A stretch of DNA of 64,000 nt, from NCBI RefSeq assembly GCF_000143985.1, contig NC_014364.1, positions 1,116,001 through 1,180,000 of the forward strand, read 5' to 3'. The notes under the pieces are model-generated. The model did not search any database. It was not told the origin of the DNA and saw only the letters and a list, made by a program, of their open reading frames with translations. The translations under genes were made by a program, and so were the position numbers. Position 1 is the stretch's first letter. Each line of letters begins with the position of its first letter. This stretch comes from Sediminispirochaeta smaragdinae DSM 11293. Its GTDB lineage: Bacteria > Spirochaetota > Spirochaetia > DSM-16054 > Sediminispirochaetaceae. Below are positions 3,415 to 17,689 of this stretch, piece by piece.

Positions 3415-4425
3415 ATGTCCCGTTCTCTGCGATTTCCCCAGATCGAGCAGCTGCTGCTTGACCATCCGGAAGGCCTGCATCGGGCAGATATCGCCCGACG
3501 CCTCGGAGTACACAAATCCACCATCGGCCGGGATATCACCCTGCTTACCAGCCAGCTGCCCCTGATCGAAGAAGCCGATGGTCGCATCCGTCTGGATCGT
3601 CACGGCTATCTTCACACCATTCACCTTACCATGCATGAGCTTGAGGCGCTCCATCTTTCCGCCCGACTTTTTTCCAAGGTAATGCGATTTCCCTTTCCCC
3701 ATGCCTCGGCTGCCCTGCGTAAATTAGCCGACGCTCAGGGGCGGGTGAGCCCAGCCCTTGCTGCTCGAATACGGGACACTGCTGAGGAGTTGGATGAATT
3801 TATCTCAGCATCTTCGGGAGATTACGCTGCCTACCGGAAGGTGATCGAGGAGCTCGGCATTGCAATATCCGAAATGCGGCCGGTGAAGATCAGCCACTTT
3901 TCCCGGGAAAAACAAAGCACGAGACAATTTCACCTTTTTCCTGTTACCCTCGAACCCCATCCCGAAGGCAAGGCCGTCCATCTCATCGGCTGGGACCTGG
4001 ATGCTGAAGAGCCCTTCTTCCGCACCATCAAAACCGAACGGATCGACTCGGTGATTCTGGAGGCCTCTGATCCTGATCTCTTTGCCTGCATCCCCACCGA
4101 ACGCATGATGGAAGGGCTCCGCAACGCCTGGAGCATCTGGAGCACCGATGCTCCTCCCATTCCGGTACGTCTCTGCTTCTCTTCGGTGGTGGCAGACCGG
4201 GTTGCCGAGACCCAGTGGCACAGCAGTCAGAATCTCGACTACCTGCCCGACGGCCGCCTTATCTGGTCAGCGCTCATCGCCGAACCCAAGGAGATGTACC
4301 CCTGGATCCGCGGCTGGGGCCCCGACGTCGAAATCCTCGAGCCTGAGGATTTACGCCTGCGGCACAGAAGCGATCTTGAACGCGGGGTGGCGCTCTATGC
4401 CGAAAAGGGGACAACGGATGTGTAG
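3415..4425 (+). CDS. HTH and WYL-domain transcriptional regulator beside the cas operon
   Basis: Cytosolic DNA-binding regulator of 336 residues. The N terminus is a winged helix (IEQLLLDHPEGLHRADIARR then LGVHKSTIGRD). The middle and C-terminal parts match the WYL layout, including the beta-strand block EPFFRTIKTERIDSV. WYL domains bind ligands such as nucleic acids and often regulate CRISPR-Cas, phage-defence or DNA-damage genes. The gene has a GGAGGAGGG site 9 nt before the ATG and lies 143 bp upstream of cas3 in the same direction. Control of the cas operon is therefore a reasonable inference, but no operator was identified. Base composition is more GC-rich than the cas genes. Confidence 0.82.
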   Translation: MSRSLRFPQIEQLLLDHPEGLHRADIARRLGVHKSTIGRDITLLTSQLPLIEEADGRIRLDRHGYLHTIHLTMHELEALHLSARLFSKVMRFPFPHASAALRKLADAQGRVSPALAARIRDTAEELDEFISASSGDYAAYRKVIEELGIAISEMRPVKISHFSREKQSTRQFHLFPVTLEPHPEGKAVHLIGWDLDAEEPFFRTIKTERIDSVILEASDPDLFACIPTERMMEGLRNAWSIWSTDAPPIPVRLCFSSVVADRVAETQWHSSQNLDYLPDGRLIWSALIAEPKEMYPWIRGWGPDVEILEPEDLRLRHRSDLERGVALYAEKGTTDV

Positions 4426-4568
4426 ATGTTTTCCTTTCCGCAAGAAAAAAATTGCAGAAAACTATTTTGGGTTGCGGTAGGTGCAACGGGGAGGAGGGAG
4501 AATGATGACAACTCTTATGGGGCCAAGAAAAATGTTGTGTCCCTGAAAGCTTTTGTGGGAGTGATAAC

Positions 4569-6794
4569 ATGGGGAAAGAATTGTTAGCGCATGTAAAACA
4601 GAATGATGACAAAGAATGGCAAATACACACTTTAGAAGACCACCTTAAAGGTGTCGCAGTATTATCTGCTAAGTTTACAAGCTGTTTTGGCCTGGAAAAA
4701 CTTGCATTTATTCAGGGCCTAACCCACGATGCAGGAAAGGCCAGTGATGATTTTCAGCAGAAAATAGCCGGGAAAAGCGGATATGATTCGGATGCCCATG
4801 TAAGCACAGCCGTCGATCACTCCACTGCCGGGGCCCAGTACGTCATTGAAAAATATGGAGAAGGTGCAATCCCTCTTGCCTATTCAATAATGGGGCATCA
4901 TGGCGGGCTTCCGAACGGATATGACGAAAATGATTCCTGTCTGGAAAAACGCCTTGAGAAAGAGGTCTCTGAATATAAAACCAATTTGCCGGATGAGAAC
5001 CTTCCGGATACTATTTTGCCCTCTGATTACCTGCCAAAGAAAAGCCTAAAACCTCCGAAAGTCCATTTTTTGATCCGGATGTTATACTCGGCCCTCACAG
5101 ACGCCGATTTTCTTGATACGGAACGATTTATGTCGCCGGAAAAGGAAAGTTTAAGAAATGATGGTAGTGTAAACTTCATTCAGCTTAAGGAACTCCTTGA
5201 TAATGATCTATCTGCATACACAGATCGGAGCGGAATAAACGGCACCCGGGCGGATATTCTTGACTGGTGCAGAAAAGCGGCAAATCTACCTCAGGGAATT
5301 TATTCTTTGACAGTTCCCACAGGCGGAGGCAAAACAAAATCTTCAGTGTCTTTTGCCATCGAACATTGTATCAGGCATGAGCTCAAACGTATCATTTATG
5401 TAATTCCTTATACGAGTATTATCAGCCAGAATGCCGGAGTTTTCCGCGGGATTTTCGGAGTAGATAATGTCCTGGAACATCACAGTAATCTTGAACCGGA
5501 ACATGAAAATGCCAGGAACCGCTTGTTATGTGAAAATTGGGATGCTCCCATTGTTGTTACGACCAATATCCAGTTTTTTGAATCTTTTTACAGCAGCAGA
5601 AGTTCTTCCTGCCGCAAGCTCCATAATGTAGCCGATAGCGTGATAATCTTTGATGAGGCCCAGATGCTTCCCTCTGAGTTTTTAAAACCGTGCCTGGAAA
5701 TAATAAGTGAACTGGTGGATAACTACGGCTGTACAGCCGTTCTCTGTACCGCGACACAGCCGACACTGAATAAAGAAAGATTTTTAAAAGATTCAGCATT
5801 AAAAAATGTGACAGAGATCATCCCTGAACCAGAGACTCTTTATCAAAGCTTAAAGCGCGTGGAAATAGAGTATCTTAACGAACCATTATCGAATGAGGAT
5901 ATAAGTACCAGAGTTTTACCGTTACGGCAGGTTTTGATAATAGTCAATACCAGAAGGGACGCAAGAAAAATCTTTGAGTTTATGCTCCAGAACCATCAGG
6001 ATGACGGTTCTATTTTTCATCTATCGACCTTTATGTGTCCGAAGCATCGGGAACAGACACTCAAAATTATCCGAGAAAGACTGTCGCAAAATATGCCTTG
6101 TAAGGTCGTAAGTACCCAATTGATTGAAGCCGGAGTCGATATCGATTTCTCTGTGGTCTATCGGGCCATTGCCGGTCTCGATTCAATTGCCCAAGCGGCG
6201 GGCCGTTGTAATCGGGAAGGAAAGCTTGAATACGGTAAAGTATTTGTTTTTAAGGGTGAGAATCCGCCGCCTCCCGGCCATCTGAGGCAGAGTGCTGAAT
6301 CAGGTGAGAAAACCTTGCAATCTTTTCAGAAAGATCCCTTGTGCCTTGATGCCATAGCATCCTATTTTGATGATTTCTTCTGGAAAAGAGCCGGGGCACA
6401 TGGGATGGACAAGAAAAACATCGCCTCTCGCCTTAATGTACATCCTAACGAAATTGACAAGATTCCCTTCAAAGACGTGGCAAAGGATTTTTCAATAATT
6501 AATCAGCCTACAAAGGCGATTATAATTCCCTTTGAACAAGAAGGTGAATTATTAGTTGAAAGATTGCAGAATAAATATTACTTCCCCAACAGGGATGATT
6601 ACAAAAAGGCACAGCGCCTGTCGGTTCAGGTTATGGATAAGGTGCTTGATTTGCTTGTCGGATTGGGCGCTGTCGTCGACGCCAGAGGGGACGGGCAGTT
6701 TTATATTCTGTCTAACACAGATATTTATAGTAAGCATACGGGATTATCCACGGATGATCCGCAATTTATAGAAAGTGAGAAACTTGTTTTTTAA
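4569..6794 (+). CDS. cas3: CRISPR-associated helicase/nuclease Cas3 (type I-C)
   Basis: Cas3 of 741 residues, recruited by Cascade to unwind and degrade target DNA. The N-terminal HD nuclease has H25, H53-D54 (LTHDAGKASDDF), H84 and H110-H111. The SF2 helicase follows: Walker A TVPTGGGKTKSS (about 248-259), Walker B/DEAD-type box FDEAQ (361-365), motif III TATQ (394-397), and motif VI QAAGRCNREG. All key residues are intact, so it should be active. It opens the cas operon, with cas5c beginning 9 bp downstream behind an AAGGAGG site. The cas genes are visibly richer in A+T than the flanking genes, as expected for a transferred module. Confidence 0.97.
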   Translation: MGKELLAHVKQNDDKEWQIHTLEDHLKGVAVLSAKFTSCFGLEKLAFIQGLTHDAGKASDDFQQKIAGKSGYDSDAHVSTAVDHSTAGAQYVIEKYGEGAIPLAYSIMGHHGGLPNGYDENDSCLEKRLEKEVSEYKTNLPDENLPDTILPSDYLPKKSLKPPKVHFLIRMLYSALTDADFLDTERFMSPEKESLRNDGSVNFIQLKELLDNDLSAYTDRSGINGTRADILDWCRKAANLPQGIYSLTVPTGGGKTKSSVSFAIEHCIRHELKRIIYVIPYTSIISQNAGVFRGIFGVDNVLEHHSNLEPEHENARNRLLCENWDAPIVVTTNIQFFESFYSSRSSSCRKLHNVADSVIIFDEAQMLPSEFLKPCLEIISELVDNYGCTAVLCTATQPTLNKERFLKDSALKNVTEIIPEPETLYQSLKRVEIEYLNEPLSNEDISTRVLPLRQVLIIVNTRRDARKIFEFMLQNHQDDGSIFHLSTFMCPKHREQTLKIIRERLSQNMPCKVVSTQLIEAGVDIDFSVVYRAIAGLDSIAQAAGRCNREGKLEYGKVFVFKGENPPPPGHLRQSAESGEKTLQSFQKDPLCLDAIASYFDDFFWKRAGAHGMDKKNIASRLNVHPNEIDKIPFKDVAKDFSIINQPTKAIIIPFEQEGELLVERLQNKYYFPNRDDYKKAQRLSVQVMDKVLDLLVGLGAVVDARGDGQFYILSNTDIYSKHTGLSTDDPQFIESEKLVF

Positions 6795-6803
6795 GGAGGC
6801 GTA

Positions 6804-7466
6804 ATGAATTATGGAATAAAATTGCTGGTCCGTGGAGACTATGCCCTCTTCACCAGACCGGAACTAAAGGTAGAACGAGTCAGCTATGATGTAATGACTC
6901 CGTCTGCGGCGCGGGCGATAGTTGAAGCGATCTACTGGAAACCTGCAATACGATGGATCATTGATTCAATCCTGGTTCTGAATCCGGTAAAATTTGACAA
7001 CTTAAGAAGGAATGAAGTCAAATCCAAGATCGCAGAACAGTCTATATCGGCAGCAATGAAGACCAATTCAGCGATTTGTCTTTATGCTGATGATTCAGAT
7101 ATTCGTCAGCAGCGTGCGGCTACGCTCCTTCGGGATGTTGCGTATATCATTGAAGCCCATTTTGAATATGTTCCAGGGATGGGGGATGAAAATGACGGAA
7201 AACATCTGGAGATCTTTAACCGGAGACTGGAAAACGGTCAGTGCTTTGCTCAGCCCTACCTCGGGACAAGGGAGTTCAGTTGTAGCTTTGAACCTGTAAA
7301 GGAGAAATACACGTCACAGCTTGAAGGTGAGCGGGACCTCGGAATTATGCTGTTTGATCTTGATTTCAGTGACAAAAAGAATCCTCAACCGCTCTTTTTC
7401 AGAGCAAAAATGAGCGACGGTCTGATGCTTGTTCCTCATCCCGATTCTGAGGAGGTTCTGAGATGA
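6804..7466 (+). CDS. cas5c: CRISPR-associated Cas5c/Cas5d, crRNA-processing subunit
   Basis: A 220-residue RAMP protein. In type I-C, which lacks Cas6, this subunit cuts the pre-crRNA and stays bound to the 5' handle in Cascade. The residues reported as catalytic in Bacillus halodurans Cas5d (Tyr, Lys-His) have likely counterparts here: Y44 in EAIYWKPA and K133-H134 in DGKHLEIF. No cas6 gene is present, which fits this role. The ATGA overlap of 4 bp with cas8c indicates translational coupling. Confidence 0.95.
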   Translation: MNYGIKLLVRGDYALFTRPELKVERVSYDVMTPSAARAIVEAIYWKPAIRWIIDSILVLNPVKFDNLRRNEVKSKIAEQSISAAMKTNSAICLYADDSDIRQQRAATLLRDVAYIIEAHFEYVPGMGDENDGKHLEIFNRRLENGQCFAQPYLGTREFSCSFEPVKEKYTSQLEGERDLGIMLFDLDFSDKKNPQPLFFRAKMSDGLMLVPHPDSEEVLR

Positions 7467-9235
7467 TACTACAGGAACTAAGCAAATATTATAAAAGGCT
7501 CCTTGAAGATCCTCAGATTGATATTTGTGAACCGGGATTCTCTCCGGAAAATATTAGTTTCAGAATTGTGATCTCAAAAGACGGAGATTTTATTAATCTT
7601 GAAGATCTGCGTGAGCCGGATGAAAAAAACAATCTCAGGCCAACCATAATGAATGTTCCGAAATTCGATGGCAAACGAGCAAGAGGTATAAAGCCTTATT
7701 TTCTCTGGGATAAAAGCCATTATACGGTTGGAATAAAATCGGAAAATTCTATTGAAGAAGAAACTCTGGAGCATAAAAATGCATTTATCTTACTGATCGA
7801 TGAAATCATGGGGGATTCTCTATCCGATTATTCTTCAATCGTTGCCATCAGAAAGTTTAGTTCGAACAAAGATAATATTGCAAAGCTCAAAGCCCATACT
7901 CACTGGAATGATTTTCTTAACAATTTTGCGGTCTTCGAGGTTGAAGGATCAGGATTTCAAACTGTATTTGATGATCCTCAGATTCTTGAGATCTGGCGAA
8001 AACATTACGCAAAGAGCGCTACCGGCAAGGAGATGCAACAGGGGCTCTGCCTTGTTTCAGGGGAGAAAGGTAGCCTTACAACAACCCATCCGACTATAAA
8101 AAGGGGAATAGGGGGAAAGAATGATGTTCCTTTGGTTTCCTGTAATATCGATTCCGGGGAATCCTACAATAAAACGAAAGGTGAGAACGCTCCTGTCTCT
8201 TCTATTTCCGCATCATATTTCACAGGTGCTTTGAACTACCTTGTAGATCACAATACCAATAATATCCTTCTGGGGGATACCCGGGGAGGGGATCGGCTAT
8301 TGTTCTGGGCGGAAGAAAATAAAGAAAGTGAGTCTTTTTTCGGCAGTGTTTTTGATAATCAAAAACGGGACGAGAGCAAACTAAAAGAGCTTGAAGCAAC
8401 ATTTAAGATAATTCGGAAAGGACAATATCCTGATGAGCTTGATGATGACAGTCATTTTTTTGTTCTCGGTCTGGCGCCCAATTCCGCTCGTGTATCAGTT
8501 CGGTTCTGGCATGTAGATACGGTAAAATCGATGGTTACAAAAATTGGAAGACATGTAGAAGATTTGCAGATAATCAAGATGTTTCCCGAGAGAGAGACGA
8601 ATATTCCATCGATATGGCAGCTCTTGATTGAGACTGCGGTTCTCAGGGATTCGAAAAATATTCTTCCCACCTTAGCCGGACCGTTGATGCGATCCGTTTT
8701 ATCAGGAAACAGGTACCCCAATAATATCCTGGCACTCCTGATAGGACGCATCAGACACGATCAGGACGATAAAAAAAAGGGAAAATGGAAAATAAGTTCC
8801 TACAGGGCCTCTTTTATCAAGGCTATTCTAAACAGAAATTATAATAAGGAGTTATCCGTGGCATTAGACAAAGAAAAAACAAGCGTACCTTACTGTCTGG
8901 GAAGACTGTTTGCGGTACTGGAAAAAATTCAGGAGGATTCCGCCGACGGCGAAATCAATACGACAATCAAGGACAGATATTTTTCATCTGCGTCAGCTAC
9001 ACCTAAGGTGGTATTTCCGACAATACTGAAACTCTCACAGAATCATCAGAAAAAATTGCGGACGAAAAGTCCAGGCAACATGATTAATAAAGAAAAACTT
9101 CTCGGTGAAATAATGGGTAATATCTCTGAATTCCCGGCAACACTGAAACTTGAGGACCAGGGAGAATTTGCTATCGGATATTATCATCAGCGTCAAAACT
9201 TTTTTACGAAAAAAGAGAATAAAGGAGATAACTAA
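7463..9235 (+). CDS. cas8c: CRISPR-associated Cas8c/Csd1, large Cascade subunit
   Basis: A protein of 590 residues, normal for Csd1. It is the large subunit of type I-C Cascade that recognises the PAM and starts R-loop formation. In I-C systems a small subunit (Cas11c) is usually made from an internal start within this gene; I did not find a start I could defend. The gene overlaps cas5c by 4 bp and cas7 by 1 bp (TAATG), a tightly coupled effector operon. Identification rests on position between cas5c and cas7, length, and segments such as [20 protein letters not shown], where the family has a similar block. Confidence 0.93.
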
Positions 9236-10101
9236 TGGAAGCAATAAAAAACAGGTATGAATTTGTATTATTATTCGATGTAGAAAATGGAAATCCCAAT
9301 GGAGATCCCGACGCAGGGAATCTACCCAGAATTGATGCTGAAACGTCCAAAGGCATTGTTACAGATGTTTGCCTGAAACGAAAAATACGAAATTACATAG
9401 AAATCAAGCACGGTCACGAGGCAGGGTATCATATTTATGTAAAGGAAAAAGGAGTACTGAATGCTCAGCATGAACTGGCATATAAAGCATTGGGATTGAA
9501 ACCTGAACCCAAAAAGCTCCCAAAAGATGAAGCAAAAGCCAGGGAACTTACGGAGTGGATGTGCACAAATTTCTTTGACATCAGGACTTTCGGCGCGGTA
9601 ATGACTACTGAAATTAATTGCGGGCAGGTTAAGGGTCCTGTTCAGTTAAATCTTGCCAAAAGTATAGACCCGGTAATGCCAAGTGAGCTTTCTATAACAC
9701 GAATGGCCGTAACCAAAGAAGCAGACAAGGAAAAAGAAAGAACTATAGGCAAGAAGACCCTAATCCCATACGGCTTGTATCGAGTGGAAGGATATATTTC
9801 CGCCCATTTTGCCGAGAGAACCGGATTTAACGAGACAGACCTTAACGAGTTATGGGATGCTTTTAAGAATATGTTCGATCATGACCGTTCAGCTTCAAGA
9901 GGAAAGATGAGTCCGCAAAAATTAATAGTCTTTAAACATGACAGCGCCCTTGGAAATGCTCCGGCACATAAATTATTCGATCTTGTTGATATAAAACGTA
10001 TAGGTAACACCGACCAGCCACCGCGAAGCTTCCAGGATTATGAAGTCGTTATGAATGATAATCCTTTTAATGGTGTCACAATACAAACGCTGCTTGATTA
10101 A
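9235..10101 (+). CDS. cas7: CRISPR-associated Cas7/Csd2, Cascade backbone
   Basis: A RAMP protein of 288 residues that polymerises along the spacer part of the crRNA to make the Cascade backbone. The N terminus has the characteristic Csd2 block [20 protein letters not shown] followed by PRID. The C-terminal region has the conserved [11 protein letters not shown] stretch. It begins at the TAATG overlap with cas8c and is the last effector gene. A strong hairpin follows its stop before the adaptation genes begin. Confidence 0.96.
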
Positions 10102-10109
10102 AATAAAGG

Positions 10110-10133
10110 AGTTGCCCTCAGAAGAGGGCAACT
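10110..10133 (+). other. Intercistronic stem-loop between cas7 and cas4
   Basis: AGTTGCCCTC, loop AGAA, GAGGGCAACT: a perfect 10-bp stem, 8 bp after the cas7 stop. It is followed by AAAATTA rather than a U-run, so it is more likely an mRNA-processing or 3'-stabilising hairpin, or partial attenuator, than a full terminator. It separates interference genes from adaptation genes. Confidence 0.75.
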
Positions 10134-10142
10134 AAAATTACT

Positions 10143-10787
10143 ATGTACACTGAAGACGATTTTATCCAGCTTTCAGCTATCCAGCATTATAGGTTTTGTA
10201 AGCGACAGTTTTATCTTGCTTATGTCGAGGAGATCTGGATCGAGAATTTTTTAACAGCGTCAGGACGCATCATGCATCAGCATGTTGATGATGTTCATAG
10301 AGAAAAAAGAAAAGGCCTATCTCAGGAATTTGGGCTTGCATTATGTTCTTATGAATTGGGCGTCAGCGGTAAGGCTGATGTTATAGAGTTTTATCATGAT
10401 CAAGACGGCGAATTAGTAGAAATAATACCTGTTGAATACAAAAGGGGAATTGAAAAGGAAGATAATTGCGATGCCATGCAATTATGCGCACAGGCGATAT
10501 GTCTTGAAGAAATGACTGGTTTATCAATTGAGCACGGATTTCTTTTTTACGGCAAGGAACGAAGGCGAACAGAGATCACGTTCTCACAGGAATTACGGGA
10601 AGAAACAAAAACAGCGTTTCTTGATATTCATTCATTATATAACGAGTTTTCTGAACCTCCCAAAGCAATATTTAATCAAAACTGTAAAGCATGCAGCTTT
10701 TTTGAATATTGCAAACCCAAGACTGTAGGGAAAAGGAAATCTGCAAAATCATATTTTCAAAAAATAATTAGAGAGGTAAAACCCTGA
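10143..10787 (+). CDS. cas4: CRISPR-associated exonuclease Cas4
   Basis: A RecB-like nuclease of 214 residues that works with Cas1-Cas2 to trim and orient prespacers by their PAM. An N-terminal cysteine (C19 in HYRFCKRQFYLA), the nuclease motif VEYKRG, and C-terminal cysteines in CKACSFFEYCKP are all visible. These four cysteines are the expected 4Fe-4S ligands. Its stop overlaps the cas1 start by one base (TGATG). It is the first adaptation gene after the hairpin. No clear Shine-Dalgarno site was found just before the ATG, so expression may be lower than that of cas7. Confidence 0.95.
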   Translation: MYTEDDFIQLSAIQHYRFCKRQFYLAYVEEIWIENFLTASGRIMHQHVDDVHREKRKGLSQEFGLALCSYELGVSGKADVIEFYHDQDGELVEIIPVEYKRGIEKEDNCDAMQLCAQAICLEEMTGLSIEHGFLFYGKERRRTEITFSQELREETKTAFLDIHSLYNEFSEPPKAIFNQNCKACSFFEYCKPKTVGKRKSAKSYFQKIIREVKP

Positions 10788-11812
10788 TGAAGAGGCATTC
10801 AAATACTTTATATTTAATGACACAGGGGACGTATTGCCACAAAGAAAATGACGGAATTGTCATTAAAGTCGACGGAGAACGAAAAGCAAAGTTCCCTGTC
10901 CATAATATTGAAAGTATTGTCTGTTTTGGAAATATACTTTGCAGCCCGTTTCTCCTAGGTTTTTGTGCTGAGAACAATATCTCAATAAGCTATCTGACTG
11001 AGAATGGTCGATTTCTGGGAAGATTCCAGGGCAATGTAAGCGGTAATGTTCTGCTGCGTCGAAACCAGTATCGCTGGGCTGATGATCCAGAAAAAACAGG
11101 ATATGTTGCAAGGACAATAATACAGGGGAAAATAATCAACTCAATTGCAGTATTAAATCGATTTTTGCGAGATTCAAAAGAAGTCAATGAAAGTGTAAAG
11201 TCGGCGGTTAATGAATTAAAACATATTTTGGGCGCTGTTGAAAAATCAAATGATCTGGAAGTTATTCGTGGAATTGAAGGAATAGCAGCAAAATGTTATT
11301 TCAATGTCTTTAACAATCTGATAAAGCAACAAAAAGATGACTTTGTATTTAATGGACGAAATAAACGTCCTCCAAGAGACGAGGTTAATGCATTATTGTC
11401 ATTTATATATGTTGTTATGATGCATGATATCAGATCTGCTTTGGAAACTGTTGGTCTCGATCCTGCTGTAGGATATCTGCATAGGGATCGATCCGGAAGA
11501 TATAGCTTAGCTCTTGATTTAATGGAAGAATTCAGATCTTTTTTTGCTGATAGATTGATTTTGTCTCTCATAAATCGTAATCAAATCAAAAAATCTCATT
11601 TCCGATTAACAGAGGCAAAGTCTGTCTTACTGAATGATGAAGGGAAAAAGATATTGTTGACGGCATATCAGGATAGAAAAAAGGAAGAGATATTGCATCC
11701 TTTCATCAATGAGAAGTGCACTTACGGAAGATTATTTTTTATACAGGCACTTATTTTTGCCAGATGGGTAAGGGGAGATATAGATGGCTATCCTCCATTT
11801 ATCTGGAAGTAA
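10787..11812 (+). CDS. cas1: CRISPR integrase Cas1
   Basis: A 341-residue integrase that inserts prespacers at the leader end of the array, in complex with Cas2. The metal-binding catalytic residues are recognisable: Glu in RGIEGIAAKCYF, His in VGYLHRDRSGRYSL, and Glu/Asp in the following LALDLMEEFRS. Length and order (cas4-cas1-cas2) are standard for type I-C. It overlaps the cas4 stop (TGATG), and cas2 follows after 11 bp. Confidence 0.97.
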   Translation: MKRHSNTLYLMTQGTYCHKENDGIVIKVDGERKAKFPVHNIESIVCFGNILCSPFLLGFCAENNISISYLTENGRFLGRFQGNVSGNVLLRRNQYRWADDPEKTGYVARTIIQGKIINSIAVLNRFLRDSKEVNESVKSAVNELKHILGAVEKSNDLEVIRGIEGIAAKCYFNVFNNLIKQQKDDFVFNGRNKRPPRDEVNALLSFIYVVMMHDIRSALETVGLDPAVGYLHRDRSGRYSLALDLMEEFRSFFADRLILSLINRNQIKKSHFRLTEAKSVLLNDEGKKILLTAYQDRKKEEILHPFINEKCTYGRLFFIQALIFARWVRGDIDGYPPFIWK

Positions 11813-11823
11813 GGGGTTCAAAA

Positions 11824-12117
11824 ATGCGTGTTGTAGTAAGCTATGATGTAAGGACTGATACCTCAGAAGGCCGTAGGCGGCTAAGAAGAATTGCAAAGCT
11901 ATGTGAAAGCAATGGTGTAAGAGTTCAGTATTCTGTTTTTGAATGTCAGGTCGATTCGGCAGAGTGGGTCAAAATGAAAGATAAAATTGTTAAAATTATT
12001 AATGAAGATGAAGATAGCGTAAGAGTTTATTTTCTTGGAAGCAATTGGCAACGAAAGATCTCTCATATTGGACTTAAAAAGCACTTTGATGTTGTAGATG
12101 ACACCCTGATCTTATAA
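11824..12117 (+). CDS. cas2: CRISPR-associated Cas2
   Basis: Structural partner of Cas1, 97 residues from the ATG at 11824. The ferredoxin-like N terminus MRVVVSYDVRTDTSEGRRRL contains the conserved YDV with its aspartate. The frame is open upstream into cas1, but the family N terminus and the cas1 stop at 11812 fix this start. It is the last cas gene. The array leader begins directly after its stop. Confidence 0.96.
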   Translation: MRVVVSYDVRTDTSEGRRRLRRIAKLCESNGVRVQYSVFECQVDSAEWVKMKDKIVKIINEDEDSVRVYFLGSNWQRKISHIGLKKHFDVVDDTLIL

Positions 12118-12271
12118 TGCGAAACTCAAGTTCACAGTTATCTTTAAAAAACTATTTTATTGGTATGTAAGGATTTATGAACGTTACTACTTGTTCTTTC
12201 ACATAATTAGGGAAGGATTCGCAAATACTTAACAATAATTCATTTATATGTAATAATTTAGGATGTATAGA
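12118..12271 (+). promoter_or_regulatory. CRISPR leader
   Basis: This 154-bp, strongly A+T-rich, non-coding stretch lies between the cas2 stop and the first repeat. Its position next to cas2, the perfect repeats at this end and the degenerate repeat at the other end all mark it as the leader, holding the array promoter and the integration-anchoring sequences. A GGATTCGCAAA motif occurs at about 12214. No promoter boxes can be placed with confidence. Confidence 0.8.
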
Positions 12272-15200
12272 GTCGCTCCCTTCGCGGGAGCGTGGATTGA
12301 AACCGGGCGGAGCTTAGCCTCGCCTCGGAGGTTCATAAGTCGCTCCCTTCGCGGGAGCGTGGATTGAAACTGTTTAAGCTTGTCCTCTTTCTCCGTCTTC
12401 TGGGGTCGCTCCCTTCGCGGGAGCGTGGATTGAAACACCAACAGGGAATTGCCGAGGCATGTATGGTACATTGTCGCTCCCTTCGCGGGAGCGTGGATTG
12501 AAACGTAAGTATCCCTTTCATGTTTTATCTGGTTTAAGGTCGCTCCCTTCGCGGGAGCGTGGATTGAAACGAAGAAAAGAAAATGCATGTACTACGACTT
12601 ATACCGTCGCTCCCTTCGCGGGAGCGTGGATTGAAACTTATAATGTACCGAGACGTTTTGTCTAACTCCCTGTCGCTCCCTTCGCGGGAGCGTGGATTGA
12701 AACAAGTTACTTGTCATATCTCACCTCCAATATAGTTTGTCGCTCCCTTCGCGGGAGCGTGGATTGAAACATGGAACAAGGAACAGGTAAAAGTAAAACA
12801 CTCCTTGTCGCTCCCTTCGCGGGAGCGTGGATTGAAACATAATAAAGAACATGCAAGAAAAAGTAACGATAATGTCGCTCCCTTCGCGGGAGCGTGGATT
12901 GAAACATAAATCATAGCCGGACCGTAATCACAACTAACCAGTCGCTCCCTTCGCGGGAGCGTGGATTGAAACACCGTTTTGATGGCGAGCTGTGGGAGTC
13001 CATAGGGTCGCTCCCTTCGCGGGAGCGTGGATTGAAACGAGAAAAATATCAATAAAGCTTCCACCTAATGCACGTCGCTCCCTTCGCGGGAGCGTGGATT
13101 GAAACCCGCTTTTTAATACCGGGAATTCTTTGACGTCCCAGTCGCTCCCTTCGCGGGAGCGTGGATTGAAACATAGCAGACCTTATATTTCCCTGAGTAA
13201 CAGATTCGTCGCTCCCTTCGCGGGAGCGTGGATTGAAACATCTGTTCATCTAAAAGCCGCTTTACAGACTTCGCGTCGCTCCCTTCGCGGGAGCGTGGAT
13301 TGAAACAACAAGGTTATTCCGGAAAGTAAGTATGAGGAATGGGTCGCTCCCTTCGCGGGAGCGTGGATTGAAACGAAAATGCGTTTATTGACCAAGGACC
13401 CTCACCTGGTCGCTCCCTTCGCGGGAGCGTGGATTGAAACATGCAAGGCTCGTAGCGGCAAATGTAGACGGGCTGAGTCGCTCCCTTCGCGGGAGCGTGG
13501 ATTGAAACATCGGAGGATCCCGTACCCCTGTTATTATTTCCGAGTCGCTCCCTTCGCGGGAGCGTGGATTGAAACGTAGGCAGGCCCATAAGCTGCCAAA
13601 CATCAAGATTGTCGCTCCCTTCGCGGGAGCGTGGATTGAAACACCTATTGGTGCTACGCTGGTTAAGTCTGATTTTCGTCGCTCCCTTCGCGGGAGCGTG
13701 GATTGAAACAAAGGTGGATCCTATTACAATTGGTGCTTTAACGGTCGCTCCCTTCGCGGGAGCGTGGATTGAAACCCGCTCGAAACCGCGAGAATGGCAC
13801 CAGGGTAATAGGTCGCTCCCTTCGCGGGAGCGTGGATTGAAACTTCCCTGATCTCTCTAAGCCGGTCAATAACCGACTGTCGCTCCCTTCGCGGGAGCGT
13901 GGATTGAAACGGAAACCTTGTACTGAGCTACCCAGTCAGGATATGTCGCTCCCTTCGCGGGAGCGTGGATTGAAACACTTCTGCCTGGTGTTTTCTCAGC
14001 GTCAAAACGAAGGTCGCTCCCTTCGCGGGAGCGTGGATTGAAACATCCATGAGCGAACAAAACAAGAAAAATTATACGCGTCGCTCCCTTCGCGGGAGCG
14101 TGGATTGAAACCAGCTGCAATCCCAGGGAATTGGTAAACGCTATTGGTCGCTCCCTTCGCGGGAGCGTGGATTGAAACGCCCCGTTATTATCAACGCCTA
14201 CTTAATATACCTAGGTCGCTCCCTTCGCGGGAGCGTGGATTGAAACAGAAAAAAAATCACGATTATAACGAACATAACTATGTCGCTCCCTTCGCGGGAG
14301 CGTGGATTGAAACGTTGGAACAGTCTAGCTCCGTGTTCGAGGCTAGGGTCGCTCCCTTCGCGGGAGCGTGGATTGAAACCGGCTAAAGCACCAATTGTAA
14401 TAGGATCCACCTGTGTCGCTCCCTTCGCGGGAGCGTGGATTGAAACGCGTCGTTCCTGGCGCAAGGATTATTTTACGAGTGGTCGCTCCCTTCGCGGGAG
14501 CGTGGATTGAAACGATGATCCCCGAAGAGATTCAGCGTGGTCAGAGCGGTCGCTCCCTTCGCGGGAGCGTGGATTGAAACGATAAGGAGGACTCCGGTGA
14601 GTAGACCAAAACTTTGTCGCTCCCTTCGCGGGAGCGTGGATTGAAACTTTTGTATATAGTCAGCAACATATCTGGCTGAATCAGTCGCTCCCTTCGCGGG
14701 AGCGTGGATTGAAACGTTACCATCACTTATGACGATGCTCATTTGCCTGGTCGCTCCCTTCGCGGGAGCGTGGATTGAAACATTATGCTATTACATAGCT
14801 CACAGGCTGTACTATGTCGCTCCCTTCGCGGGAGCGTGGATTGAAACAAATGTCCCGTAACGGGTAGCCCATACCCGTTAATGTCGCTCCCTTCGCGGGA
14901 GCGTGGATTGAAACATTAAATAAATTAAAAAAGGAGCAAGCCTATTCAAGTCGCTCCCTTCGCGGGAGCGTGGATTGAAACATCTATGCTTTCTAACATT
15001 TCTATGAGGGAAGTGGGTCGCTCCCTTCGCGGGAGCGTGGATTGAAACAAAGGAGCTTGTTAATCCTACTATAGTGCTAACGGTCGCTCCCTTCGCGGGA
15101 GCGTGGATTGAAACTTTTCAAAAACATCCCTGGCAGCCTCTATTGCTGCTGGTCGCTCCCTTCGCGGGAGCGTGGATTGAAACAGAAACATTCATGCCTG

Positions 15201-17395
15201 AATATTAAATCTGTAAAGAGTCGCTCCCTTCGCGGGAGCGTGGATTGAAACACGGAGGTTTTAGCTTCCTAGAAAAGAATAAATCAGTCGCTCCCTTCGC
15301 GGGAGCGTGGATTGAAACATGGCTGATGATCGATGTGTACAGGTTCCATTCGGTCGCTCCCTTCGCGGGAGCGTGGATTGAAACGTGACTGTGACAAGCG
15401 ACACATCAAAATCCACAATGTCGCTCCCTTCGCGGGAGCGTGGATTGAAACTGCATCAAGGCAGCTATGCCAGCCTGGCAAAAAGTCGCTCCCTTCGCGG
15501 GAGCGTGGATTGAAACTGATGATCGCAGACAGGGCCATCGAAACATCCATTGTCGCTCCCTTCGCGGGAGCGTGGATTGAAACGATGACAACCACCCCAT
15601 TGGCACACTTCTACTGCTTGTCGCTCCCTTCGCGGGAGCGTGGATTGAAACTCATTCCGGAAGAGGGATTACTTGATCGCTGTCAGTCGCTCCCTTCGCG
15701 GGAGCGTGGATTGAAACGAACCCCGCATGTTAACTGCATTGATCCGGGCCACGTCGCTCCCTTCGCGGGAGCGTGGATTGAAACGATAATTCAATGCGAT
15801 TGTTTTTCCAAACATCTCCGTCGCTCCCTTCGCGGGAGCGTGGATTGAAACGATCAGCGCCTTGACTGCTTTCATTTCAGACCGGCGTCGCTCCCTTCGC
15901 GGGAGCGTGGATTGAAACATAATAATATGATGGAATATGTATAAAGGTGTTGTGTCGCTCCCTTCGCGGGAGCGTGGATTGAAACGGGGGTATCAGTTCC
16001 GACTTCCTGATTGGTGATTTGTCGCTCCCTTCGCGGGAGCGTGGATTGAAACATGATTGAATTAGGCGATAGGCTCTACCTTTCAGGGTCGCTCCCTTCG
16101 CGGGAGCGTGGATTGAAACGCTATACATACAGGCGTGGAGCAATGGGACAGGCTAGTCGCTCCCTTCGCGGGAGCGTGGATTGAAACAATTATACTCTAT
16201 AATTTATAGTATATTGAATAAGTCGCTCCCTTCGCGGGAGCGTGGATTGAAACCTCATTAGCCCTTTACTCCATCATTCCAATATCCTAAGTCGCTCCCT
16301 TCGCGGGAGCGTGGATTGAAACAAACGAATAGTAACCCCATAAGTCTCTCCATAGTGTCGCTCCCTTCGCGGGAGCGTGGATTGAAACGAGCGAATGGTG
16401 ATCGACGGGAAGATCGCCCACGGTCGCTCCCTTCGCGGGAGCGTGGATTGAAACACGAAAGGTGTCAGAATAACGCCTGCCGTCTGATAGTCGCTCCCTT
16501 CGCGGGAGCGTGGATTGAAACAAGTTTGCCTGTGCAAACGGGGATTACATCAAGTGGGTCGCTCCCTTCGCGGGAGCGTGGATTGAAACGTATGCCGATT
16601 TCCATTTACTTTGCCCCCTGCATGTCGCTCCCTTCGCGGGAGCGTGGATTGAAACAATGAGTAGAATGGTATCTATGTCAGCAATAACAACGGTCGCTCC
16701 CTTCGCGGGAGCGTGGATTGAAACATGGCTGATGATCGATGTGTACAGGTTCCATTCGGTCGCTCCCTTCGCGGGAGCGTGGATTGAAACGTGACTGTGA
16801 CAAGCGACACATCAAAATCCACAATGTCGCTCCCTTCGCGGGAGCGTGGATTGAAACACTGAGACCTTTGAGGGGTACGCAAGAATCTCGAACGTCGCTC
16901 CCTTCGCGGGAGCGTGGATTGAAACACGAAAGGTGTCAGAATAACGCCTGCCGTCTGATAGTCGCTCCCTTCGCGGGAGCGTGGATTGAAACAAGTTTGC
17001 CTGTGCAAACGGGGATTACATCAAGTGGGTCGCTCCCTTCGCGGGAGCGTGGATTGAAACGTATGCCGATTTCCATTTACTTTGCCCCCTGCATGTCGCT
17101 CCCTTCGCGGGAGCGTGGATTGAAACAATGAGTAGAATGGTATCTATGTCAGCAATAACAACGGTCGCTCCCTTCGCGGGAGCGTGGATTGAAACATGGC
17201 TGATGATCGATGTGTACAGGTTCCATTCGGTCGCTCCCTTCGCGGGAGCGTGGATTGAAACGTGACTGTGACAAGCGACACATCAAAATCCACAATGTCG
17301 CTCCCTTCGCGGGAGCGTGGATTGAAACTCCCGTAGGTTTCTTGCAACGAGGTGGGACGAAGCGTCGCTCCCTTCGCAGGAGCGTGGATTGAAAC
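12272..17395 (+). CRISPR. Type I-C CRISPR array, 77 repeats and 76 internal spacers
   Basis: The repeat is 32 nt: GTCGCTCCCTTCGCGGGAGC followed by GTGGATTGAAAC. The CGCTCCC/GGGAGCG stem and GTGGATTGAAAC tail are typical of I-C. I counted 77 repeats at a mean spacing of 67 bp; spacers are 33-37 nt. The repeats I read are identical except the last (17364), which has one G-to-A change. Transcription is inferred to run left to right from the leader. Spacers 63-68 (16455-16825) recur as 70-75 (16926-17296). The pair 46-47 (15319-15419) also equals 67-68 and 74-75. Spacers at 13710 and 14380 are reverse complements over 29 nt. Confidence 0.99.
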
Positions 17396-17429: not shown

Positions 17430-17461
17430 GTCGCATCCCTCGCGGGTGCGTGGGGTGCGAC
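17430..17461 (+). repeat. Degenerate leader-distal CRISPR repeat
   Basis: GTCGCATCCCTCGCGGGTGC followed by GTGGGGTGCGAC lies exactly one spacer (34 nt) after the last good repeat. The repeat stem has changed on both arms (CGCA opposite TGCG), keeping it pairable with one bulged T. The 3' tail GGATTGAAAC is lost. Its outer ends GTCGCA/TGCGAC are also complementary. Decay at this end confirms array polarity. Confidence 0.8.
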
Positions 17462-17689
17462 TAAAAATGGAGCTGAAAGGGGATGTACGCCTTCCATCAC
17501 TTCTGCGAGTGGTAATTCTCCCCTTCGTGAGAAAACCTGGAAATGAATTATAATCCGAAAACATTTTAGGAGGGCCTGTTGAGGAAGATGATAGAGAATT
17601 GGGAGGAAAGATTAGACGGTGTCGGGACAGTGGTAGCTCACTTAGAAGATCACAGCAATCAATATTTGCCGATCATCGTTGCATGATGA

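Follow-up and report, generated by a model that had tools for sequence, protein, structure and literature searches.

The crRNAs of type I systems guide Cascade to double-stranded DNA targets, the seed being the PAM-proximal end of the spacer. Microviridae (microviruses) are tiny single-stranded DNA phages, and Sediminispirochaeta smaragdinae (formerly Spirochaeta) is a free-living marine spirochaete. In Bacillus halodurans, for which type I-C adaptation by Cas4-Cas1-Cas2 has been described, the gene set cas3-5-8c-7-4-1-2 is accompanied by a 32-nt repeat and spacers of 33-37 nt (PMC6519985). Processing by Cas4 in type I-C depends specifically on the PAM and contributes to setting the orientation (PMC6519985), and the canonical PAM of this type is TTC (PMC8482600). 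Repeated type I sampling of one region leaves multiple, partly overlapping spacers of a single invader lineage from both strands, an older mismatched one being followed by a newer one. Primed or targeted acquisition is also known for type I-C, in Legionella, according to work cited in PMC7056967. With regard to microvirus hosts, a 2022 survey had links to Spirochaetes only as single contigs in fragmented metagenome-assembled genomes, which were treated as error-prone (PMC9239249). The finished type-strain chromosome of S. smaragdinae (4,653,970 bp) has one reported CRISPR (PMC3035371).

The window analysed in this study is a stretch of 64,000 nucleotides of that chromosome. A complete type I-C operon with its WYL regulator spans 3415-12117 (PADLOC; E-values of the cas genes 2.8e-38 to 8.6e-218; Table 1), and the order cas3-cas5c-cas8c-cas7-cas4-cas1-cas2 bears out the type I-C setting that had been proposed from the sequence alone. 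The array shows the features expected of this type, with repeats of about 32 nt ending in GTGGATTGAAAC and spacers of 33-37 nt, 68 of which are distinct. Gene set, repeat and spacer lengths are the same as in B. halodurans, and nothing unusual was seen in the S. smaragdinae system by comparison. A decayed repeat, GTCGCATCCCTCGCGGGTGCGTGGGGTGCGAC, lies 3' of the last spacer (17431-17462) and is similar to GTCGCACCCCTCGCGGGTGCGTGGATTGAAAC, the sister-species repeat. Exact direct duplications of spacer blocks were observed at the old array end (15319-17296), where S46-47 = S67-68 = S74-75 and S63-66 = S70-73. The sister species (L270, G376 C11:44500-51500) has an I-C-type array of its own, in which 43 repeats were found and the first two spacers are tandemly duplicated; no spacer is common to the two arrays.

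Table 1. Features of the CRISPR-Cas locus and of the spacers discussed (positions in the window)
Feature	Position	Strand	Description
WYL-domain regulator, adjoining the cas operon	3415..4425	+	PADLOC WYL 9.1e-20
cas3 (I-C)	4569..6794	+	PADLOC Cas3c 8.6e-218
cas5c	6804..7466	+	PADLOC Cas5c 4.2e-70
cas8c	7463..9235	+	PADLOC Cas8c 4.7e-154
cas7c	9235..10101	+	PADLOC Cas7c 4.4e-113
cas4	10143..10787	+	PADLOC Cas4c 2.3e-74
cas1	10787..11812	+	PADLOC Cas1c 5.2e-147
cas2	11824..12117	+	PADLOC Cas2c 2.8e-38; ORF listed from 11716, Cas2 match from residue 37
CRISPR array, type I-C	12272..17395	+	77 repeats of GTCGCTCCCTTCGCGGGAGCGTGGATTGAAAC; 76 spacers
Array polarity			leader side at 12271, beside cas2; variant last full repeat 17364-17395
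S19	13509..13543	+	major capsid protein motif IGGSRTPVIIS, score 49
S22 (younger, leader-proximal)	13710..13743	+	AAAGGTGGATCCTATTACAATTGGTGCTTTAACG, 34 nt
Shared 29-mer in S22	13712..13740	+	AGGTGGATCCTATTACAATTGGTGCTTTA
S28	14112..14146	+	VP4 motif QLQSQGIGKRY, score 49; conserved Phe precedes in relatives (TTC PAM possible)
S29	14179..14214	+	VP4 motif PRYYQRLLNIP, score 48
S32 (older)	14380..14414	+	CGGCTAAAGCACCAATTGTAATAGGATCCACCTGT, 35 nt
Shared 29-mer in S32	14384..14412	-	reverse complement of AGGTGGATCCTATTACAATTGGTGCTTTA
S33, adjoining S32	14447..14481	+	major capsid protein motif RRSWRKDYFTS, score 58
S35	14581..14615	+	AAGGAGG, then GTG AGT AGA CCA AAA CTT = MSRPKL.., read against capsid N-termini
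S36	14648..14683	-	VP4 motif DSARYVADYIQ, score 55
S37	14716..14749	+	VP4 motif VTITYDDAHLP, score 58; conserved Phe precedes in relatives (TTC PAM possible)

Two spacers, S22 and S32, are mirror images of each other. The array parse confirmed their positions and their reverse-complement identity over 29 nt as noted in the sequence-only reading; the shared part had been given there as 20 nt plus 9 nt and is in fact one contiguous 29-mer. The flanks differ as had been claimed, at positions 2, 32 and 34 of S22 against the reverse complement of S32, so that 31 of the 34 aligned positions are identical over the full spacers, and the two nearly coincide in extent (1-34 for S22 and 1-35 for reverse-complemented S32). 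Such a match was absent from 100 dinucleotide shuffles of the window. Among all spacer pairs no other opposite-strand match exceeds 9 nt and, exact duplicates set aside, no same-strand match exceeds 10 nt, while the 29-mer occurs in the genome at up to three mismatches only in S22 and S32. The suggestion that the two crRNAs could pair with each other also holds thermodynamically: the spacer RNAs are predicted to pair over 29 bp at -51.4 kcal/mol, compared with -28.7 kcal/mol for the next pair. The mirror pair is a clear case of the sampling of one site in opposite orientations, a known kind of event for which no new mechanism is needed.

It is scarcely credible that the pair arose from inversion or copying of one spacer inside the array in place of two acquisitions. 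Duplicated spacer blocks do exist at the old array end, but they are direct and bounded by repeats, whereas the inverted pair consists of 33-nt arms alone, with neither neighbour spacers nor repeats accompanying them, and its three substitutions and length difference are restricted to the edges. Nothing in the structure of the array supports a rearrangement, and this origin was rejected.

The spacers around the pair point to the invader. All spacers were translated in every stop-free frame and scored against 96 microvirus loci (five GenBank records, most of the others being IMG/VR contigs fetched by capsid similarity), the sister-species array serving as a negative control. Six spacers within S19-S37 scored 48-58 against microvirus proteins, above the maxima of the shuffled peptides (42) and of the sister array (41), in which no microvirus-like spacers were found. 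S35 is probably the start of a capsid gene, judging by its GTG codon behind AAGGAGG, and this supports the use of GTG starts in these viruses. S20 (13576-13610, minus strand) reads NLDVWQLMGLPT and may perhaps be a site in another microvirus protein, its score of 39 being inside the control range. The eight assigned spacers are confined to 19 consecutive array positions, S19-S37 (p about 0.0004), a pattern suggestive of a single episode of attack by microviruses. The nearest microviruses are of the VP1-VP2-VP4 type, namely bajarodmic virus 207 (PQ006306) and IMG/VR contigs such as L110 (3300012286_000377). The capsid, VP4 and VP2-start peptides of this clade match the S. smaragdinae spacers. 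At the nucleotide level the two are not similar enough for a protospacer to be called directly, and the targeted viruses themselves are absent from the collections searched.

With concatenated spacers, weak blastn matches clustered in one virus family, the Microviridae: S33 matched capsid genes, and both S36 and S37 matched replication-initiator (VP4) genes. The best matches of these neighbour spacers cover 23-35 nt at 86-100% identity (E 0.3-3) in microvirus VP1/VP4 genes. The database search for the 29-mer that the sequence-only reading had proposed did not yield its protospacer in phages, viral contigs, plasmids or Spirochaetota genomes. For S22 and S32, no exact or near protospacer was found in phage records, by patterns in IMG/VR or in 393 Spirochaetota genomes, where the one match outside the array at up to three mismatches has three and is expected by chance. 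Matches of both to phages were at chance level by blastn, run with all 68 distinct spacers and also with the pair alone, and a plasmid blastn with seven spacers (the six microvirus ones and S22, with S32 left out) gave no match. In IMG/VR, the degenerate 29-mer had no matches in the frame GGSYYNWCF and seven in the frame VDPITIGA, none of them microviral; the pattern DSARYVADYI had none in viral contigs. No microvirus capsid was found in 60 relatives.

Read as coding sequence, S22 gives AAAG + GTG GAT CCT ATT ACA ATT GGT GCT TTA ACG and the reverse complement of S32 gives ACAG + GTG GAT CCT ATT ACA ATT GGT GCT TTA GCC G. With GTG as the start, these become MDPITIGALT and MDPITIGALA(G), and the site would comprise about 4 nt upstream, the GTG start codon and codons 2-10, MDPITIGAL(T/A), of a VP2 (DNA-pilot) gene. 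VP2 genes of the same clade, which were picked by capsid similarity independently of the MDPITIGAL peptide, start as MDPVTIAAIIGGG (L110), MDPVTTSALIGAG (L132) and MDPVLASALIGGG (L139), and the position of the start codon in the two spacers agrees with all three. Their N-termini include MDPVTIAAIIG (L110), MDPVTTSALIG and MDPVLASALIG, and the VP2 of L110 matches PHROG pilot proteins. Against VP2 N-terminal regions, S22 (score 36) ranked first and S32 (32) third of 398 spacer peptides, the second being the opposite frame of S22 and the best unrelated peptide scoring 28; in a search of whole microvirus genomes, the S22 VP2 score of 36 falls inside the shuffle range. Context and peptide together make the start of VP2 the most likely target.

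The peptide alone is no proof of VP2, because many proteins of tailed phages likewise start with MDP[IV]T[IV][GA]A. The site may instead lie in another phage gene with this start, such as one for a tailed-phage internal-virion or structural protein, given that, of 80 contigs fetched for the pattern, most carry non-microviral proteins that begin in this way, and that the N-terminus of L187 is exactly MDPITIGAL. We regard this as unlikely, since S33, S36 and S37 beside S32 and the nearby S28 and S29 are microviral and the VP2 ranking also argues against it. Among those contigs (L144-L223), unrelated phage proteins repeatedly have the pattern as their N-terminus, and many of these proteins are about 150-180 aa long. 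On the other strand, the reading ..KAPIVIGST.. might place the site in a tailed-phage gene for a PAAR-domain protein (tail-spike tip), with exact APIVIGST in the PAAR proteins of L005/L017 and L011/L018 (PAAR Pfam 1.6e-14). This was a promising peptide but proved very unlikely as the target: its scores of 33 and 31 are barely above those of unrelated sister-species spacers (30), even though the loci were picked via this same peptide, and it was rejected as being at background level. PAAR proteins have a conserved Ser after GST where the spacers read Cys or Phe, and no match above shuffles was found at the DNA level in the PAAR loci. A degenerate pattern for the PAAR frame occurred in 12 stretches among the matches listed for 84,980 species genomes.

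The sequence-only reading had explained the pair either by one locus sampled from opposite strands in two related invaders or by repeated sampling of a hot spot. The first of these finds inferential support, in that the 29-nt core is kept, the flanks differ and both spacers can be read as a VP2 start. A hot spot is not needed. When 8-19 spacers were drawn at random from one microvirus genome of 4-4.5 kb, an opposite pair sharing at least 29 nt appeared in 4-29% of the simulated arrays, an estimate that ignores the two variants, which require a conserved site. Pairs of opposite TTC sites overlapping by at least 29 nt number 23-30 per genome in five microvirus genomes, and the repeated sampling of a small genome is enough to explain the pair. 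We consider it probable that S22 and S32 were acquired independently, and stored in opposite orientations, by the I-C system from the same site of about 35 bp (most likely the VP2 start) in two related but non-identical microviruses.

A 5' TTC PAM fits the neighbouring microvirus spacers by homology. Phe codons (TTT/TTC) precede S37 in 84 homologous positions and S28 in 75, and Lys-Lys codons follow S36 in relatives; the residue preceding the S19 motif is Tyr in relatives. For the pair itself, a variant of the same-site, two-virus origin, which is not exclusive of the VP2 assignment, is that the two prespacers derive from one strand and one TTC PAM left of the site, and that one of the two (in the simplest case S32) entered the array the wrong way round. 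The reversed spacer would then lack a PAM on that side and might not function. The two spacers do share their left end, the one that such a TTC would anchor, with free ends differing by 1 nt, while two independent PAMs would by our estimate give a coincident end in roughly 1/13 of the offsets that leave 29 nt or more in common. These coincident ends somewhat favour a flipped insertion. Even so, we find it rather doubtful: flips are expected to be rare because cas4 is present and its processing is PAM-specific in I-C (PMC6519985), and opposite PAM pairs are common in microvirus genomes, as counted above. The right flank is also compatible with a reverse PAM, since almost every MDP-type relative shown has Gly (GGN) as VP2 codon 11, which places a G directly beside the right end of the spacer. 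A separate PAM for each orientation (TTC left, GAA right) is favoured by Cas4 and by how often paired PAMs occur, and is placed slightly ahead of flipped insertion as a judgement and not a measurement, both fitting about equally well.

With the leader adjoining cas2 and variant and decayed repeats at the far array end, S22 is the younger spacer. In the two-virus origin preferred here, S32 would have been stored first, and S22 would have followed as the tenth insertion after it, taken from a variant in which the edges of the site carry three changes. Against S32, this variant has mismatches at positions 2 and 4 from the PAM-proximal end of the spacer. The S22 variant may have escaped S32 and then primed or re-triggered the acquisition of S22, a course that is plausible because both mismatches sit in the expected S32 seed. 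This order of events resembles repeated type I sampling as outlined above, including Legionella I-C priming, but two viral variants are implied in S. smaragdinae and priming here is putative. Between them, the two crRNAs would cover both strands of the replicative dsDNA form.

It is possible, and tentatively proposed, that this isolated spirochaete was immunised repeatedly by at least two microvirus strains, which would be the first secure evidence of Microviridae entering Spirochaetota, with the mirror pair reflecting strain turnover at the VP2 start and a PAM on each side allowing one prespacer to be stored both ways. This record is no binning error, because the chromosome that contains it is finished and belongs to an isolated type strain. 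The spacers show entry of DNA, not productive infection. Provisionally, the linking of Microviridae to a spirochaete isolate appears to be new among open-access papers, most subscription papers being outside the search. This host link is the interesting part, the S22/S32 pair itself being ordinary CRISPR biology. Should a protospacer be found, Spirochaetota would join the microvirus host range and the two-PAM (TTC..GAA) idea would become testable. Nearer the leader, S8 (12771-12806) reads MEQGTGKSKTLL, a Walker-A-like helicase motif, from which the newer spacers probably include some against dsDNA elements.
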